A stretch of 44,131 nucleotides of DNA, from NCBI GenBank assembly GCA_021821445.1, contig JAKACK010000008.1:1-44131 (forward strand), in the 5' to 3' direction. The stretch comes from Microcaldota archaeon. Its GTDB lineage: Archaea > Micrarchaeota > Micrarchaeia > Micrarchaeales > Micrarchaeaceae. Made by a program: the position numbers and the translations under genes. Shown here one piece after another: positions 1,759-33,343 of the stretch (its first letter is position 1; each line of letters opens with the position of its first letter). The notes beneath the pieces are model-generated. The model was not told the DNA's origin. It was given only the letters and a program-made list of their open reading frames with translations, and searched no databases.

Positions 1759-2325
1759 TCAATTTTTTAAAGTGCTCAAATCTTTTATTATTTGATCAAC
1801 TTTCTTTGAAAGCTCTTCATCGGATTTAAACTGCTCTGAATTTTCTAGTAGGTAACTCACCTCATTTGATATATTATCCAATTGTGAGCTGATATTGTAT
1901 TTTTTTAGATACTCGGATGTTTCTAATTCTGTATGTCTCTTGAACATTCCCATAAATGGATCTGATATCTCTTTTATCAATTCAGACCCTTTATCTGTTA
2001 TTGAATAATATTTTATTCCTTTTTCTTCTTTCATACTGAGATATCCCTCTTCATACAGATCTTTTAAAGCTGGATATATATTTCCAGGTGATGGTCTCCT
2101 TCTTCCTTCAGTAACATCACTTATTGTTTCTATTATCTGAGCTCCATTTATCTCTCCTTCTCTAGCCATTTTTAGTATCATGTATTTTATACCGATAAAC
2201 CCACCGATATGATGCATATGGTGCATCCCCATCATACCTTCATGGCAACCTTTTCTATGCATCCTTCCGTGCATCTTTCCTTCTCTACCCTCTTCATTTC
2301 CCATTTCATTCATATTTCCATTCAT
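1759..2325 (-). CDS. PadR family transcriptional regulator with Met/His-rich N-terminus
   Basis: PSPGNIYPALKDLYEEGYLSMKEEKGIKYYSITDKG is the PadR winged-helix signature; N-terminal MHGRMHRKGCHEGMMGMHHMHH. Confidence 0.88.
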   Translation of the reverse strand: MNGNMNEMGNEEGREGKMHGRMHRKGCHEGMMGMHHMHHIGGFIGIKYMILKMAREGEINGAQIIETISDVTEGRRRPSPGNIYPALKDLYEEGYLSMKEEKGIKYYSITDKGSELIKEISDPFMGMFKRHTELETSEYLKKYNISSQLDNISNEVSYLLENSEQFKSDEELSKKVDQIIKDLSTLKN

Positions 2326-2333
2326 GTTATCAC

Positions 2334-2361
2334 ATCTAAATATAGATATCTATATTTAGAT
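2334..2361. promoter_or_regulatory. 28-bp perfect palindrome, candidate autoregulatory operator
   Basis: ATCTAAATATAGATATCTATATTTAGAT is its own reverse complement; each 14-bp half is itself an ATCTA-N4-TAGAT dyad; ends 8 bp from the padR start codon. Confidence 0.7.
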
Positions 2362-2407
2362 ATTTATATGTTTCTATTTTGAAAGGGTTTGCAGATAAAA
2401 ATAAAAA

Positions 2408-4969
2408 TCAAAGTTTATTCCTTTTTATAAAATTAATATTTATTCTCATTAATTCCATAGATTTAGCGACCTGTAGAGCTATAACTTCACTTGGTTTATT
2501 AACTCTGAAGAAATCCTCAACATCCTTTAGAATTACAGGATCTGACACCAATTCAAGATTTTTGAATAAGGATGTTCTAAATGAAGAATTAGGTGAATAG
2601 ACCTTTTCTATTTTACTCCAATTATCCTTTATCCATTCCCATACAACCTTCTTACCATAAGGATTCCCTATGAAATGCTTAACTGTATTAGAAGCTATAT
2701 TACCGGACATTATTGATGGGATCACATAAGAATTCTGCAATTTTACATATTTAGAAAATGAGAAGTCTAAAGCTTCCTTATCAATTTTCTCATTTTTAAA
2801 TAATCCTAATGATATCAGCAGCTTTAAACTTTCTTCTTGGACCGTCTCTTTTTTGTAAAGTTCCATTAACTGTTTGAATTCTGTTTCTCCACCGTTTAAC
2901 GCTATTATTGAGTAAACTGCAGATGTCAAAGTGGGACTTACACTTTTTATATTTTTAAATAGGTCTCTTGCCTTCTTAACAATTGGTTTATAACCTAATA
3001 AACCTAAGTTATACAGTACATTAAGTCTGAATATGTCATCAGTATCATTTTTAGGTACAAAATCCCAATTGTACTTTTTATATTGCTTTTCAAGATACCA
3101 AAGCATTATTTCCTCTATTTTCTTATTTCCTTTATCTTTATACGCTAATGTATTAATTACATTTAAGGAATCTAATAGCAAATTGTTGGCAGGATAACTT
3201 ACATTGTACAAATATTTCTTTATTAATTCAAAATAGTAATCTAAGGTTATATTTCCAGATCTTACAAAATTATAAAGGTCATTTACTATACCCCATTCAT
3301 CTATACCATTTAATTTTCCCGATTTAATCTCCTCGCAAATGGCTTCTAAGGATGGTTTATCATACATTACTCTGTAAATTCCCTTCTGCTGATAATTAAG
3401 TTTGAATGGCTTACCTTTAACGTCTTCTATTTTATCCACTCTATCCTTTAACATCTTATATTTTATGCTTTTATCTCCAATTAAATTGTATCTTATTGGT
3501 ATATCCCATTTTATATTTGTACTTTTATCATTATCTAATAAGAACCTTTTCTGCTCTAATTTTACCAAATTTTTATTTTTGGATACCATTACCAATGGAT
3601 AGCCACCTTTTGTAATCCAGTTCTTTATCATCCCTTTTACATCTGAATTAATATGCCTATCCTTAGCTGCTTTATCCAAGCTGTACCATAAATCTTCTTT
3701 TGTTGTGTTTGAATATATATGAGAATTTATATATTCTATTAAACCTTGCCTGAATGTTTCTGCTCCTAAGTAATCCTCAATCATAGATAGTACACTGGAA
3801 CCCTTTTCATAGCTTATCACATCAAATATTGAATTTATCTTTGCAGGGCTTTCTACCTTAACACTTATAGGGTGGGTATTCTTAAGTTGATCATAGAATA
3901 AAGCATCTTTAATTTCATTCTCATAAAACTGATACTTTACACCTATATCTGGAAGGGTTGCATCTACCGCTTTATAACTCATAAATGTGGCAAAACTCTC
4001 ATTCAGCCATAAATCATCCCACCATTTCATAGTTACCAAATCACCAAACCACTGGTGAGCTAATTCGTGAGCTATTGTTATTGAAACTCTTTCTTTTGTT
4101 ATTGAAGATGATTTGTTTGTTGCGAATATCGCTGTATCCCTGAATGTTATAGCACCCCAATTTTCCATAGCACCTGCTGAAAAATCTGGTACCGCAATCA
4201 AATCCATCTTTGGTAAGGGGTAATCTATGTTGAAGTATTTGAAATAAAATGACATGAACTTTTTTGTATACTCTAAAGCGAGTTTTGCATATGCCTTCTT
4301 TCCTGGAATTGTCAACACTCTTAAAGGTAAGTTTCCAACTTTTCCCGATACAGATTCGAAATCCCCTACACCCAAATATACTAAATAGGTAGACATCAAA
4401 GGTGTAGTTTTAAAAGTTACTAATTTCATCCCTTTAGATCTTTTTATGGATGATTTTATTGGCATATTAGAAACAGCTTCTAAACTTTGATTTATTATAA
4501 ATGATATATCAAAAGTTGCTTTGAAATTTGGTTCATCAAAGCATGGAAATGCGGCTCTAGCATCACTTGGTTCAAATTGTGAAGATAATAGATACTTCTC
4601 TTTTCCTTTTTCAGTATAAGAACTTTTATAAAAACCATACATTTGGTCATTATTTTTACCTTTAAAATTAAGCACTAATTTTACTAACCCTATCATTTTC
4701 TTTGGGAGTTTAAAAGTTACTGTTTCATCTAATTTATCTACTTTATAAGTCACTTTAAATTCTTTATTATCTTTAATTAAGAGAGCTTTTGTTATCTCAA
4801 TTTCTTTGGAATTTAATCTTATCTTATCGGTTTTATCTGATAAATTGATTGATATTTGTTCATCACCAAGAAATGTAAAGGTCTTAAAATCTGGCTTGAA
4901 GATTAAATTATAATTTAGAGGAGTTATATTTTCGTCTAATCTTTTGTATATATCCACCATATTTATCAT
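2408..4969 (-). CDS. M1 family zinc aminopeptidase
   Basis: GAMENWGA and HELAHQWFGDLVTMKWWDDLWLNE (HExxH...E) motifs. Confidence 0.95.
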   Translation of the reverse strand: MINMVDIYKRLDENITPLNYNLIFKPDFKTFTFLGDEQISINLSDKTDKIRLNSKEIEITKALLIKDNKEFKVTYKVDKLDETVTFKLPKKMIGLVKLVLNFKGKNNDQMYGFYKSSYTEKGKEKYLLSSQFEPSDARAAFPCFDEPNFKATFDISFIINQSLEAVSNMPIKSSIKRSKGMKLVTFKTTPLMSTYLVYLGVGDFESVSGKVGNLPLRVLTIPGKKAYAKLALEYTKKFMSFYFKYFNIDYPLPKMDLIAVPDFSAGAMENWGAITFRDTAIFATNKSSSITKERVSITIAHELAHQWFGDLVTMKWWDDLWLNESFATFMSYKAVDATLPDIGVKYQFYENEIKDALFYDQLKNTHPISVKVESPAKINSIFDVISYEKGSSVLSMIEDYLGAETFRQGLIEYINSHIYSNTTKEDLWYSLDKAAKDRHINSDVKGMIKNWITKGGYPLVMVSKNKNLVKLEQKRFLLDNDKSTNIKWDIPIRYNLIGDKSIKYKMLKDRVDKIEDVKGKPFKLNYQQKGIYRVMYDKPSLEAICEEIKSGKLNGIDEWGIVNDLYNFVRSGNITLDYYFELIKKYLYNVSYPANNLLLDSLNVINTLAYKDKGNKKIEEIMLWYLEKQYKKYNWDFVPKNDTDDIFRLNVLYNLGLLGYKPIVKKARDLFKNIKSVSPTLTSAVYSIIALNGGETEFKQLMELYKKETVQEESLKLLISLGLFKNEKIDKEALDFSFSKYVKLQNSYVIPSIMSGNIASNTVKHFIGNPYGKKVVWEWIKDNWSKIEKVYSPNSSFRTSLFKNLELVSDPVILKDVEDFFRVNKPSEVIALQVAKSMELMRININFIKRNKL

Positions 4970-5125
4970 TATTAATAATCGCTAAATAATTAAAAACATT
5001 TAGTACAGAAGATTCTAATTTTATAACATAAAAATTGATTTTCAGAAATTATAAAAGAGTGTCTGTCAAATAATAATTTGATTTAATAATTTTATTGAAA
5101 TTATATTAATTGTTTAGGGAATAAA

Positions 5126-6505
5126 ATGGTTGATAATTCGTATACACTTAAGAGAGTACTTGGCTTAAAAGAATCTGTTATAATAAATTTAGGCGCAATT
5201 ATAGGTGCAGGCATATTTGTTATAATAGGTTTAGCTGCAGCTAAAGCTGGACCTGCAATTGTATTATCCATATTTATTTCTGCATTAATTGCAATATTCA
5301 CAGGGTTAAGTTTTTCAGAGATAGCGCAGCATGTATCAAAAGAAGGTGGTGTGTATGAATATGCAAAAGAGACCTTCAGACCATCTGCGGGTTTTGTTGG
5401 AGGTACTATGTGGACTTTTTCAAATATGATTGCATTATCTGCAGTTTCATTAAGTCTTGGAAGTTATGTGAATGCTCTTTTTGGTATACATGTTGATACG
5501 ATAATATATGCGATCTCAGTTATAATCTTGTTCGCATCTTTGAATATAGCAGGTATAAAGAATTCCACTAAAACACTCACAGCTTTGGTACTGATAAACC
5601 TTTTAGTACTCGCTATTTTCATAATATCAGGTTTGTTTTACTTTAATGCATCGCACTTTTCTAATTTTATACCTAATGGATTTGGAGGTATATTGGCAGG
5701 TTCAGCACTTATATTTTTCGCTTTTACGGGTTTTTCAAGGATAACAACTGTTGGTGATGAGGTTAAGGATCCAGAAAAAACAATACCTAAAGCTATCATA
5801 TTATCCATAATCATATCTTCAATTCTTTATGCTGCAATAGCAATTGTGGCTGTTGGACTGGTTAATACAAGTGTATTGGGGCATGCAGCAGCTCCATTAT
5901 CAACTGCAATAGCTATAATAAAGAATCCTTATTTGGATGCGATAATTGCGATTGGTGGTATAACAGCAACTGCGGGTGTTATACTCACAGGTATCTTGGG
6001 AACTAGTAGGGTACTTTACGCTATGGGTAGGGATAATGAGATTCCATCTAAATTTGGTTATGTTGATAAATATTCAACACCTTTATATTCGATACTTCTT
6101 TCTACAGTAATAAGCTTGATATTCGTATATTTTGTATCTTTCTCAACCATTATAGAGGCATCAAATGTATCTGTATTAATAGCTTATATAATAATAAACT
6201 TTTCAGCGATAGTTCTTTGGAATAAAATTAAAAAAGAGGATAATCCACAAAAATTAAGAGAACATAAATATTTCTTCCTCATACCGTCGATAGGTATTTT
6301 GACCATATTAATCACAATATCGTATTTAGGTATTCATGCGATTGAGATAAGTTTGGCTGTTTTATTCATAATCTCCTTAATATATTACCTAAGGTACATC
6401 TTATTTACTGAAGGATACATAAAAGTGGTAAATAAAAGAATACCAAGGATAAGCTTAGTTAGGGTTATAGGTAAAAGCAGAGCGGTAATCAAAAAAGATC
6501 TTTGA
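5126..6505 (+). CDS. APC family amino acid permease
   Basis: N-terminal GAIIGAGIFVIIG motif, about 12 hydrophobic segments, FSRITTVGDEVKDPEKTIPKAI. Confidence 0.9.
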   Translation: MVDNSYTLKRVLGLKESVIINLGAIIGAGIFVIIGLAAAKAGPAIVLSIFISALIAIFTGLSFSEIAQHVSKEGGVYEYAKETFRPSAGFVGGTMWTFSNMIALSAVSLSLGSYVNALFGIHVDTIIYAISVIILFASLNIAGIKNSTKTLTALVLINLLVLAIFIISGLFYFNASHFSNFIPNGFGGILAGSALIFFAFTGFSRITTVGDEVKDPEKTIPKAIILSIIISSILYAAIAIVAVGLVNTSVLGHAAAPLSTAIAIIKNPYLDAIIAIGGITATAGVILTGILGTSRVLYAMGRDNEIPSKFGYVDKYSTPLYSILLSTVISLIFVYFVSFSTIIEASNVSVLIAYIIINFSAIVLWNKIKKEDNPQKLREHKYFFLIPSIGILTILITISYLGIHAIEISLAVLFIISLIYYLRYILFTEGYIKVVNKRIPRISLVRVIGKSRAVIKKDL

Positions 6506-6580
6506 TTTACACAATTTATTATTTGTTTATTTAGGATATCTTTAAATTAGTTAGCAGAAAAATTAATATGGTGATTTAAA

Positions 6581-7177
6581 ATGTCAGAGGATATTAACCA
6601 AAAAGGAGCAACGGATAATAGCAAGAATAACAACTCTAATGTTAAACTTGAAAAGAAAGGATTTAAAATTTCTTATGTAATTGGAATAATCGTGATTTTA
6701 GCGTTTATAGTTATAGTTTACAGTTATATTAGAAATTATACAACTAGCCCTACACCATCTGCACAGGTAGTATCTGCTGGTGACAATATAAGTGTATATT
6801 ATACAGGAAGTTATGTAAATGGAACTGTATTCCAATCAAATTTTAATGGAACACCTTTAAACTTCACAGTTGGATCTGGTGAATTAATAAAAGGATTTGG
6901 AGATGCTGTATTGGGAATGAAAGTTGGTCAAATTAAAACGGTCACAATACCTGAAAATGAAGCTTATGGTCCTGTAAACCAAAGTCTTATAAATGTAGTC
7001 CCATTGTCCGAATTTAAAAACCAAACCGTAAATGTCGGAAGTATTATAACAGATTCTTCTGGAGCGAGAGGTATAGTTATTAATAAAACAGATACAAATG
7101 TAACTGTTAATTTCAATTCTCCATTAGCAGGTAAAACTTTGGTCTTTAAAATAGAGGTTTTGAATATATCAAAGTAA
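6581..7177 (+). CDS. membrane-anchored FKBP-type peptidyl-prolyl isomerase
   Basis: N-terminal TM segment (ISYVIGIIVILAFIVIVYSYI), then FKBP domain DNISVYYTGSYVNGTVFQSNF...GSGELIKGFGDAVLGMKVGQIKTVTIPENEAYG. Confidence 0.92.
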   Translation: MSEDINQKGATDNSKNNNSNVKLEKKGFKISYVIGIIVILAFIVIVYSYIRNYTTSPTPSAQVVSAGDNISVYYTGSYVNGTVFQSNFNGTPLNFTVGSGELIKGFGDAVLGMKVGQIKTVTIPENEAYGPVNQSLINVVPLSEFKNQTVNVGSIITDSSGARGIVINKTDTNVTVNFNSPLAGKTLVFKIEVLNISK

Positions 7178-7243
7178 TTTGTTTTATTTTGAATTATTTT
7201 TCTATTTTTTAACTAATAAAAATTATATTTATAAGATGATATA

Positions 7244-7642
7244 ATGTTTGTAAACAAGGATACCGTTATGGTTTACGATACAGATTATCAGGGAGTCGCG
7301 CATTATGCCGCATATTATAGATTCTTTACTGACGCGATAGAAAACTATAAAAAACAGGTTTTAGGAATTGATATAAATGCGGTGAGTAATGAATTGTGGT
7401 TTGTAGTTGTGGAATCAAAAGCGCAGTATTACAAATCATTACACATAAATGATGTGATATCTGTTGAACTTAACCCTGTTGTATCTGATTCAAAAAAGAG
7501 TATAACTTTTAATCTTAAGATAAAAATAGACAAAACAGGAGAAACTGCCACGGAGGGATATTTGACTATGGTTTCAATAAACCCAAAAGTTTGGAAATCT
7601 GTTGAGATGCCGCAGAATTTAATTGAAAAATTTAAATCATAA
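7244..7642 (+). CDS. acyl-CoA thioesterase, 4-hydroxybenzoyl-CoA thioesterase-like (hot-dog fold)
   Basis: VYDTDYQGVAHYAAYYRFFTDAIENY matches the YbgC/4HBT active-site motif. Confidence 0.85.
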   Translation: MFVNKDTVMVYDTDYQGVAHYAAYYRFFTDAIENYKKQVLGIDINAVSNELWFVVVESKAQYYKSLHINDVISVELNPVVSDSKKSITFNLKIKIDKTGETATEGYLTMVSINPKVWKSVEMPQNLIEKFKS

Positions 7643-7777
7643 TTACCAAACGTAACCTTTATCAGAGCAGTCAAGTTCAGCTCCGCAATTAGAACATTTC
7701 AGATGGCATGCTTGCATATGAAACATTTTATAGCCACAAAGAGGGCATAATTCAAAATCATTTTCAATAATATTCAT
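7643..7777 (-). CDS. small zinc-ribbon protein (44 aa), not in the ORF track
   Basis: Translation MNIIENDFELCPLCGYKMFHMQACHLKCSNCGAELDCSDKGYVW with two CxxC knuckles; stop abuts the thioesterase stop. Confidence 0.8.
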   Translation of the reverse strand: MNIIENDFELCPLCGYKMFHMQACHLKCSNCGAELDCSDKGYVW

Positions 7778-7798
7778 AAAATCAAAATCTAAAAATTT

Positions 7799-7909
7799 TT
7801 ACCTTAAAAAGTCTCTGTAGTATAGTAGTAAAAATGCTTTTGATTCCATATCTGCATCTTCAGTAATATTTTTTCTATTTTTATAATCTTTTGCCATTTC
7901 GGTTGTCAT
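7799..7909 (-). CDS. small ORF (36 aa), possible operon partner of the zinc ribbon
   Basis: MTTEMAKDYKNRKNITEDADMESKAFLLLYYRDFLR*; same strand, 21 bp upstream of the zinc-ribbon start. Confidence 0.5.
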   Translation of the reverse strand: MTTEMAKDYKNRKNITEDADMESKAFLLLYYRDFLR

Positions 7910-8032
7910 AAAATCACAATATTATATTTTATTAATGGTATTTATTAATATTGTATAAGTTTTACATTTGAATAATAAAATTTGATAAATAGAAATAGAA
8001 TTTAACAAAATATATTAATACCAATATAAAAA

Positions 8033-9232
8033 TCAAAATACTTTATATTCTCCTGCCAACATACCTTTTGTTAAAAATATTATATTGTCAAGTTCTTCTT
8101 GTGCTAAGTCGCTTACCTTCTTTTTTACTTTTTCAATATCTTCAGGTTTTTCGGCTGAAAGAGATATGTTCAAGTGTTTTGGATCGTTTATTGGTCTTCC
8201 TATCTGTGATACTAAATTTACATTACATTCGCTTATTTCAGGAAATGATGTTATTATATCATTTGCTAACTCATTCGCAAATATATTATATATTTTTCCT
8301 ATGTGGTTTACAGAATTTTTTCCAGCTGCAGCCTCTAAACTCATCGTTCTGAAAGGTGTTATTATTCCATTTACTCTGTTTCCCCTTCCAACAGATCCAT
8401 CATCTCCAGATTCACAGCTCAATCCAGATTTTGTAAGATAAACAACAGAATTCTTTATATCGTCCCCATTATTTATAACAACTTCTACATCATCCTTGGT
8501 TATTTTCTTAGCGTTATTCAGTATATCTTCTTTTATTTCATTTTTATAAGCTTCATATTCACCAACACTGGAGAAATATTTTGATACAAACGCTATTGCT
8601 ACCGTTAAGGTTATACTTTTTTTATCTCTAACTCCCATAACCTTTACATCTTCGCCAACTGCCGGTTTCTTATCTTTATACTCAGCAGAATTAAGCATAT
8701 GCTCAGTTTCAATGACTAATCTTTCGGTAGGTGTAAAAGGTGCAAATCCAACTCCAAAAGATGTATCATTTGCTAAAGGCATATCTGTATGTCTATTAAA
8801 TATATTTGTAAGATCTGCTGATCCTTTAACTATCTTTGACATATAAGTTACCTCATTGTCAACATCTAAAAATCGGGTATTCTTTCTTAAGTATTCTTTT
8901 GCTGTATCCAAAGCAATTTGATCAACAGGTATATTTACACCGTTATAATTTTGTATTGCTCTACCAGTCATTATTACCTCTATTGGCCTTATTATTTCGG
9001 CACTGTCGAATGTAACGTTTGATGATCCTCCAATTATCAAACCTTTATCAACATTGTGATGAAGTACCTCACCGAATTCGTCCAAGTATGCTTTTGATAA
9101 GGCTAAACTCACACTATCCATTATACCGTCAATCAAACTATCTGGATGTCCTATACCTTTTCTTTCAACATACTCTACAGGTTGCTTATATAAAGGAATT
9201 GAACCATTTTCTGAAACTCTAATATTCGCCAT
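8033..9232 (-). CDS. mat: archaeal-type S-adenosylmethionine synthetase
   Basis: ERKGIGHPDSLIDGIMD, GRGNRVNGIITPFRTMSLEAAAGKNSVNHIGKIYN. Confidence 0.95.
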   Translation of the reverse strand: MANIRVSENGSIPLYKQPVEYVERKGIGHPDSLIDGIMDSVSLALSKAYLDEFGEVLHHNVDKGLIIGGSSNVTFDSAEIIRPIEVIMTGRAIQNYNGVNIPVDQIALDTAKEYLRKNTRFLDVDNEVTYMSKIVKGSADLTNIFNRHTDMPLANDTSFGVGFAPFTPTERLVIETEHMLNSAEYKDKKPAVGEDVKVMGVRDKKSITLTVAIAFVSKYFSSVGEYEAYKNEIKEDILNNAKKITKDDVEVVINNGDDIKNSVVYLTKSGLSCESGDDGSVGRGNRVNGIITPFRTMSLEAAAGKNSVNHIGKIYNIFANELANDIITSFPEISECNVNLVSQIGRPINDPKHLNISLSAEKPEDIEKVKKKVSDLAQEELDNIIFLTKGMLAGEYKVF

Positions 9233-11874: not shown

Positions 11875-12642
11875 ATGAACAAAATTTCAAATACAGATAC
11901 AGTTTATTTAGATAATGATGACGTTTATATTAATGGAGTAAATTACAAAATAAACGTTTATTTTATGAATAGGAAAACCATAACTGGATCTGTAGAAGAT
12001 GATAAAATTATAATAAAAATTCCTGTGTATTTTAGTAAAGAGCAAAAAATTAAGTATTATGCTAAATTAAGAGAAAAATTGATTAAACGTATAATAGATG
12101 GTAAATTTTATAAAACTTTAAATTTTTTTAATAATGAGGAGATTATAATAATGGGTAAACCAATTAAAATATCTGCATTATTTGATTCTAAAATTAAACG
12201 TACTTCAATAAATTTTAATGGTAATTTACTTTCTTTAAAAATTCCTATAAAATATAAGGATACCGAAAATGAATACATAGATAAAATTGTAAAAAAGTTT
12301 CTATCAAAATGGGCTTATCCAATTTTAAAAGATAGGATTGAATTTTTAAATGATAGGTTCTTCAGATTCAGGATAAATCAAATAATTATATATGGACCTA
12401 AAAAAACTATTTTGGGCAGTTGTAATTATAAAGATAAAAAGATATATTTGAATTTAAGATCATTATTCGCTCCTTCCGATATGCTTGATTCTGTAATAAT
12501 ACACGAACTAGCCCATTTAAAATATCCAAATCACTCTAAAAAATTTTGGAACTTGGTTTTATCAGTTATGCCAGATTATAAAACAAGAAAAAAATGGTTA
12601 AATCGCAATATTTATAATTTAGGACTCCCTATTAAAAATTAA
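11875..12642 (+). CDS. YgjP-like zinc metallopeptidase (DUF45)
   Basis: IIHELAHLKYPNHSKKFWNLVLSVMPDYKTRKKWLNRN. Confidence 0.88.
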   Translation: MNKISNTDTVYLDNDDVYINGVNYKINVYFMNRKTITGSVEDDKIIIKIPVYFSKEQKIKYYAKLREKLIKRIIDGKFYKTLNFFNNEEIIIMGKPIKISALFDSKIKRTSINFNGNLLSLKIPIKYKDTENEYIDKIVKKFLSKWAYPILKDRIEFLNDRFFRFRINQIIIYGPKKTILGSCNYKDKKIYLNLRSLFAPSDMLDSVIIHELAHLKYPNHSKKFWNLVLSVMPDYKTRKKWLNRNIYNLGLPIKN

Positions 12643-17258: not shown

Positions 17259-17813
17259 TTATTTTTTTATGAATATAAGCATATAATGGCTATCAAGATC
17301 TATCTTATTTACAAGCTGAAAACCCTCTTTTTTTAGTCTATTTATTGCTTGTTCTTCAGATAATCTAACAGAATAAGGAGGTCCAAAATCAGTATTCTCT
17401 TTTTTAAAATCAATATCAACATAATGTCCACCCTCCTTAATTACTCTGCTTATCTCTTTTTCATATCCTTCAGGTAAATAATGGAATGAGTTTGCGGTAA
17501 ATATGGTATCTATTGATTTATTATCAAAAGGTAATTTATCCGGATCAACTTTTAATATTTCAATATTTTTTATACCTTCTAAATTTGTCTTTAATGCTTC
17601 GATAGCATCTTCTGAGATATCCACAGGATAAAGCTTTTTTGGATATTTACTTATAACATAAGAAAAAGACCCACCACCTGCACCTAATTCAACAACATTA
17701 TCCTTTGAAAATATATCTTTATTTTCTTCTATTGTATTTATAAAAAGTTGGCTTAATTTATAAAATTGTGGTTTAAAATTTGGAATAACCCAAAAATTTT
17801 CATCGTTTTCCAT
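17259..17813 (-). CDS. class I SAM-dependent methyltransferase
   Basis: VVELGAGGGSFSYVISKYPKKLYPVDIS (motif I), LPFDNKSIDTIFTANSFHYL. Confidence 0.85.
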   Translation of the reverse strand: MENDENFWVIPNFKPQFYKLSQLFINTIEENKDIFSKDNVVELGAGGGSFSYVISKYPKKLYPVDISEDAIEALKTNLEGIKNIEILKVDPDKLPFDNKSIDTIFTANSFHYLPEGYEKEISRVIKEGGHYVDIDFKKENTDFGPPYSVRLSEEQAINRLKKEGFQLVNKIDLDSHYMLIFIKK

Positions 17814-33087: not shown

Positions 33088-33121
33088 AGAAGCACCAAAA
33101 TAAACAAAGTTTAAACTTTGT

Positions 33122-33343
33122 TCATAATATCTGCAATAATAGTATTAATCCCAATACGAATCCTATTATCCACAATGTTTCGGGTATTACGAAGAAGAAT
33201 AACACCTGTCCGAATTTCTCAGGTTTTTCCGCTATTATACCCATTCCTGCAGCACCTATTCCTTGCTGTGCCATTCCTGTACCTATTAAACCTCCTGCGA
33301 ATGCAATTGAAGCTGCAATTTCTACTAATGCACTTACTACCAT
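33122..33343 (-). CDS. atpK: A/V-type ATP synthase subunit K (c-ring proteolipid)
   Basis: 73-aa two-helix hairpin with ion-site carboxylate VIPETLWIIGF. Confidence 0.93.
   Translation of the reverse strand: MVVSALVEIAASIAFAGGLIGTGMAQQGIGAAGMGIIAEKPEKFGQVLFFFVIPETLWIIGFVLGLILLLQIL

Follow-up and report, generated by a model that had tools for sequence, protein, structure and literature searches.

The window (the whole 44,131-nt stretch of DNA analyzed) has archaeal gene content, including an AdoMet synthetase (PF01941) and V/A-type ATPase genes. The region considered here surrounds the start of a minus-strand padR gene, which is a single-gene (monocistronic) unit with no partner gene adjoining it. 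The features are:

End at 1716, convergent to padR and downstream of it: PRPP synthetase gene
1759–2325, minus strand: padR, encoding a 188-residue PadR-family winged-helix regulator (Pfam match, predicted fold)
2326–2333, minus strand: GTGATAAC, with the Shine-Dalgarno-like GTGATA, between operator and start codon (sequence; relatives)
2333–2362, minus strand: candidate operator, two overlapping TATC-N8-GATA dyads with a common GATATC (sequence and ortholog alignment)
2334–2361, no strand assigned: perfect 28-bp palindrome (palindrome search and shuffles)
2362–2369, minus strand: TATA box ATATAAAT, conserved as CGAAACATATAAATATC in most orthologs
2370–2374, minus strand: BRE-like GAAA(C), preceding the TATA box (sequence)
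2408–4969, minus strand as padR and upstream of it: M1-family aminopeptidase gene

The sequence-only reading had described 2334–2361 (ATCTAAATATAGATATCTATATTTAGAT) as a perfect palindrome, each half of which is itself a dyad, 8 bp from the padR start. All of this was confirmed: the symmetry is perfect over 28 bp, both 14-bp halves are dyads with 5-bp arms, and eight bases (2326–2333) separate the palindrome from the padR ATG (2325, minus strand). No perfect palindrome in the window is longer: its arm is 14, compared with at most 12 in 300 dinucleotide shuffles, and no second copy with up to three mismatches was found in the window or in its own assembly (839,642 bases, ~85% complete). From base composition, ~0.0017 such palindromes would be expected per window and 0.03 per genome. 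In DNA that is 71% AT, such a palindrome alone would be notable but not compelling, and it is conservation that decides. Two further perfect palindromes are present in the window, AACAAAGTTTAAACTTTGTT (20 bp, 33103–33122), just upstream of a minus-strand ATPase gene cluster, and AAAATAAACGTTTATTTT (18 bp, 11947–11964).

The conserved unit slightly exceeds the palindrome, since its half-sites are TATC and GATA and extend over 2333–2362. Read on the minus strand, this 30-bp candidate operator is TATCTAAATATAGATATCTATATTTAGATG (2362–2333), made up of a first dyad TATCTAAATATAGATA (2362–2347) and a second dyad TATCTATATTTAGATG (2348–2333), with GATATC common to both. The order on this strand is GAAAC (2374–2370), ATATAAAT (2369–2362), the operator, the rest of GTGATAAC, and ATG, and the operator runs from the last base of the TATA box at its 5′ edge to the Shine-Dalgarno-like sequence at its 3′ edge. 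GTGATA or GGTGAT likewise precedes the ATG in relatives, and is presumed to be Shine-Dalgarno-like on the basis of archaeal 16S 3′ ends. By canonical archaeal spacing, transcription is predicted to start near 2339, within the second dyad, with the array of dyads mostly upstream of this position. The expected overlap with the transcription start region thus holds.

A search of 60 related genomes identified six close padR orthologs (53–57% identity), and a wider search added a seventh, in G263 (the others are in G001, G002, G006, G011, G031, and G034). All seven have a tandem ATCTA-N4-TAGAT array between the TATA box and the padR start, composed of two or three units spaced 14 bp apart. Loss of the motif upstream of padR orthologs, named in the sequence-only reading as grounds for giving up its proposal, is therefore not what is seen, and the two adjacent dimer sites that it predicted would fit the two or three units in relatives. 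In the alignment, CGAAACATATAAATATCTA is found in most orthologs, followed by ATCTA-N4-TAGAT-type units with nearly constant half-sites and an N4 that varies among units and species. A third unit, at times degenerate, precedes the start codon in most relatives, and the window has two; AGATGTGATAACATG follows the array in the window, G006, G031, and G263. A tRNA-like sequence, recognized by eye, lies directly upstream of the padR promoter in the last three of these genomes (L005, L006, and L170, in G006, G031, and G263).

Perfection over all 28 bp needs complementary N4 spacers (AATA/TATT), and this complementarity is not kept in the relatives. With half-sites fixed and 4-bp spacers variable among orthologs, the overall perfection is partly chance: what is conserved is the tandem of dyads, and the 28-bp symmetry arises because the spacers of the two conserved dyads are, by coincidence, complementary. 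That the whole is a functionless accident of AT-rich DNA is nevertheless extremely improbable. The genomic expectation of 0.03 does mean that the symmetry by itself is not extreme, but the tandem dyads are conserved at the same position in seven relatives, and TATC-Nk-GATA is enriched upstream of PadR genes across the family (see below).

The same comparison bears on whether the palindrome acts as RNA, either as a hairpin in the padR leader or as a terminator of the upstream aminopeptidase gene. RNA of 2326–2361 can indeed form a 12-bp stem (−11.7 kcal/mol, z −4.6), but this long stem depends on the spacer complementarity that is not kept, and the corresponding RNAs of relatives fold differently and score less (z −1.6 and −2.6). 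Most of the array would not be transcribed from the predicted start, the G+C-rich stem and T run of an intrinsic terminator are absent, and PadR genes in general are marked by these half-sites at other spacer lengths too. A role as RNA is very unlikely on these grounds.

Within genomes, the strict form of the operator is confined to padR. ATATCTANNNNTAGATATCTA occurs without mismatch in seven of the 60 genomes, including the window's own, which are exactly those with a close ortholog; it is always at padR, with three overlapping matches in G001, and matches elsewhere in the seven genomes have two mismatches. The regulon search suggested earlier thus gave no second strict site, at other promoters or elsewhere, in the window's own assembly (~85% complete) or in six close relatives. 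This would fit autoregulation alone, with room left for weaker or single sites. Since padR is monocistronic and its neighbors differ among relatives, the operator goes with padR rather than with a neighbor. Near matches to the operator are not commoner than those to a reversed-pattern control, those inspected being mostly in coding sequence, and the shorter dyad with one mismatch is also at control level. A multi-gene regulon of strict sites was accordingly rejected, with none outside padR, as was TAGATATCTA as a regulon marker (5 occurrences vs. 12 in the control).

Two other observations were made in the genomes of relatives. An intergenic TATCTACAATTATATACATTATGATATCAAC is conserved upstream of a gene for a Lys/Ala-rich protein (L221 position 2262 in G002 and L222 position 2477 in G001); the window's genus has two other species, and both have it. 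It might be a weak operator, or no more than a conserved promoter. At L209 (G001:C2 near 76275), two tandem genes of ~430 residues (ORFs 140–1426 and 1562–2866) have near-identical starts (LNWDNLIGVQVPIKTKDYNENN...), apparently from a recent duplication.

More distant PadR genes were compared in a survey of 70 non-redundant loci, archaeal and bacterial, using 350 bp upstream of the PadR domain; a scan of GTDB contigs with a generic PadR peptide pattern, which returned distant PadRs only, contributed to this set. TATC-Nk-GATA was found at 13 of the 70 loci with k = 6, 10 with k = 7, and 14 with k = 8, compared with 0.4–0.6 each in dinucleotide shuffles, and at none with k = 3, 4, 9, or 11. Tandem GATATC-Nk-GATATC accounts for six, three, and two cases, respectively (0 in shuffles). 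A TATA-like element lies no more than 14 bp upstream of the first half-site at 20 of 34 loci, where 1.7 would be expected. Bacterial loci often carry (c)GATATATC(g) instead: GATATATC is present in 25 of the 70 upstream regions (0.7 expected), most of them bacterial and including that of E. coli nfeR. Sites resembling CGATATATCG, with the same half-sites in a different arrangement, are found at bacterial loci L088, L103, L108, L135, L156, and L193, among others.

Spacer length is not scattered at random among these loci. Those of Bathyarchaeota, Thorarchaeota, and Nitrososphaerota mostly have k = 6, and L097 has five k = 6 dyads at a 12-bp period; k = 7 is found in some members of the window's order and in several Thermoplasmata, and k = 8 in two PadR clades, one of them the window's own. 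Mapped onto a tree of the PadR proteins, k requires 6 changes, compared with 16.8 under label shuffling (none of 200 shuffles came that low), the tree being a quick one with modest support in which related sequences inflate the clustering. The label tracks protein clade more than taxon; the window's order has members in both the k = 7 and k = 8 clades, and one Bathyarchaeota PadR that groups with the k = 8 proteins has this spacer too. At two k = 7-array loci, L214 (G059, 6425–8982) and L215 (G045, 4902–7515), padR is followed by genes for an ABC-transporter ATPase and permease, the classic pairing of PadR with efflux, here with a tandem operator.

The match of spacer and clade speaks well, though not conclusively, for reading of the adjoining site by the encoded PadR. 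Another winged-helix protein could in principle read 2333–2362, and the window's own genome has two more, weaker PadR-domain matches (C7 and C23 proteins), so a different regulator might mainly read the site and control padR from outside. It is unlikely that one does: the spacer class follows the PadR encoded beside the site, the strict array is absent at other promoters, and the genes of these two proteins are without it.

Whether the pattern can be generalized is, in our judgment, an even call. The proposal would be that archaeal PadRs share an old operator code of head-to-tail TATC-Nk-GATA units starting from the TATA box, with neighbors sharing GATATC and with k (6, 7, or 8, for periods of 12, 13, or 14 bp) a property of the PadR clade; dimers would compete or stack on the shared boxes, and the number of units would grade autorepression. 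An autoregulatory PadR operator is a known kind of element, and the one proposed here would be an archaeal version in which tandem dyads share boxes. Any novelty for a specialist may lie in the comparative spacing pattern. The literature searched, where journal coverage was partial and does not establish priority, gave no account of TATC/GATA tandems in front of archaeal padR genes. Archaeal PadR regulators of this little-studied group now have a concrete candidate operator, and the combination of fixed half-sites, clade-specific spacer, and TATA-adjacent tandem units could be used to find PadR operators, and to predict their geometry, in uncultured archaea.

The regulator itself is a clear family member, at 51.3 bits against Pfam PF03551 (curated cut-off 27; E = 1.1e-13). 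Its AlphaFold2 model has a confident winged helix at about residues 45–121, followed by several C-terminal helices (133–161 and 169–187) in an s1-like arrangement. Foldseek placed the model closest to BC1756 (6JYI) and to B. subtilis PadR bound to operator DNA (5X11), with a low whole-chain TM (~0.38) that makes domain placement unreliable. Residues 1–42, adjoining the confident winged helix, are predicted to be disordered (pLDDT ~40–55, no fold in the model) and contain seven His, nine Met, and one Cys, which agrees with the earlier description of a metal-ligand-rich PadR. His 35, 38, and 39 are invariant across five aligned close orthologs.

A single dimer could be accommodated by TATC-Nk-GATA with k = 6–8, where half-site centers are 10–12 bp apart; a distance of ~34 Å separates the recognition helices in the structure of C. 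difficile PadR1, consistent with half-sites ~10 bp apart (PMC5050560). At the window's site, TATC and GATA, with centers 12 bp apart, would each take one recognition helix of a PadR dimer, and the two tandem dyads, 14 bp apart with a common GATATC, could hold up to two dimers. GATATC alone has centers only 2 bp apart, unfit for a dimer, so it is most likely shared by neighboring ones. Dimers 14 bp apart would be rotated by ~120 degrees, and since the half-sites of neighboring dyads overlap by 2 bp, simultaneous occupancy by two is uncertain and they may compete.

The inverted-repeat half-sites overlie the padR promoter and are conserved in orthologs, and the palindrome is very probably the autoregulatory operator of padR, at which PadR would block its own initiation, probably with relief by metal bound to the tail. 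Binding, repression, and stoichiometry are all inferred from sequence. Bound PadR would cover the DNA between the TATA box and a point past the predicted start; its simplest effect would be to block recruitment or initiation of RNA polymerase, holding down its own level. The simple autorepression proposed at the outset gains support from the array between TATA box and start in all seven close orthologs and from the lack of a second strict site. It is quite unlikely that PadR binds here instead as a pure activator of padR that depends on a metal or ligand, or as a dual regulator of padR. Nothing direct speaks for this beyond the fact that a regulator's effect cannot be read from its site alone, whereas TATA box to start is the classic position for repression in archaea, where activators usually bind upstream of TATA/BRE.

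That the signal is a metal is a narrower call, and we lean only slightly toward it: the His/Met-rich N-terminal tail may bind a metal ion, judging from its composition, analogy to NfeR, and the gene neighbors of a relative. Metal on this flexible tail beside the winged helix would loosen the protein from DNA, leading to derepression, as described for E. coli NfeR with nickel. Counting against this, the strict-site search of the window's own assembly and six close relatives found no second target for a putative metal sensor. In relative G011, L210 (G011:C32:39000-53049) has on one strand, at 4449–8021, padR followed by genes for a SAM methyltransferase, an ArsR-type HTH protein, MerA (524.9 bits vs. 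a curated NCBIfam cut-off of 454.45), and a small membrane protein. The PadR ortholog stands at the head of this row, which resembles a mercury-resistance cluster. For more distant tailed PadRs, at L217, L218, and L219 (G265, G267, and G057), padR is likewise followed by a methyltransferase gene of the class-I SAM type (Methyltransf_11). This suggests a conserved padR-methyltransferase operon, absent from the window's genus, and these neighbors would support a theme of metal or metalloid detoxification. Possible methyltransferase partners elsewhere in the window's own genome were rejected, being distant homologs (window 17259–17813; C37) with no array upstream.

Among characterized relatives, M. 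tuberculosis Rv3488 has a PadR fold with solved structures and is one of the nearer solved relatives of the window's PadR. It is however a short protein of PadR-s2 size, and the window's PadR scores just 20.3 bits with its NCBIfam model, far below the cut-off of 140. B. subtilis PadR has a winged helix and several C-terminal helices as here. The conserved PadR-type motif ATGT-8N-ACAT, with 4-bp inverted half-sites and an 8-nt spacer (PMC5050560), has the same geometry as TATC-8N-GATA. The half-site letters differ, and B. subtilis PadR is without the tandem array with shared boxes, the His/Met-rich N-terminal tail, and the archaeal promoter. C. difficile cdPadR1 is similar in having two inverted-repeat sites in its own promoter, with AT-rich spacers and proposed autoregulation (PMC5050560). 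Its TACT-N11/12-AGTA sites are separate and non-overlapping, though, and it belongs to the PadR-s2 subfamily, with a single C-terminal helix and many further genomic sites.

E. coli NfeR (YqjI), which represses nfeF and is relieved by excess nickel according to PMC7981267 (citing Wang et al. 2011 and 2014), differs in its bacterial promoter, in its Cys pairs (MSHHHEGCCKHEG...) where the window's tail has many Met and a single Cys, in GATATATC where the window has a TATC-N8-GATA tandem, and in its divergent ferric reductase target. No such nfeF gene lies beside the window's padR, between its M1 aminopeptidase and PRPP synthetase neighbors, and padR was not filed as an NfeR ortholog. Both proteins nevertheless have a metal-ligand-rich extension before the PadR domain, His-rich in NfeR, with 32% identity over 75 residues, and half-sites of AGATAT/ATATCT type are found at both ends of the nfeF-nfeR intergenic region. 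These common half-sites suggest that the family reads old DNA letters, with spacing and unit number as the parts that change.
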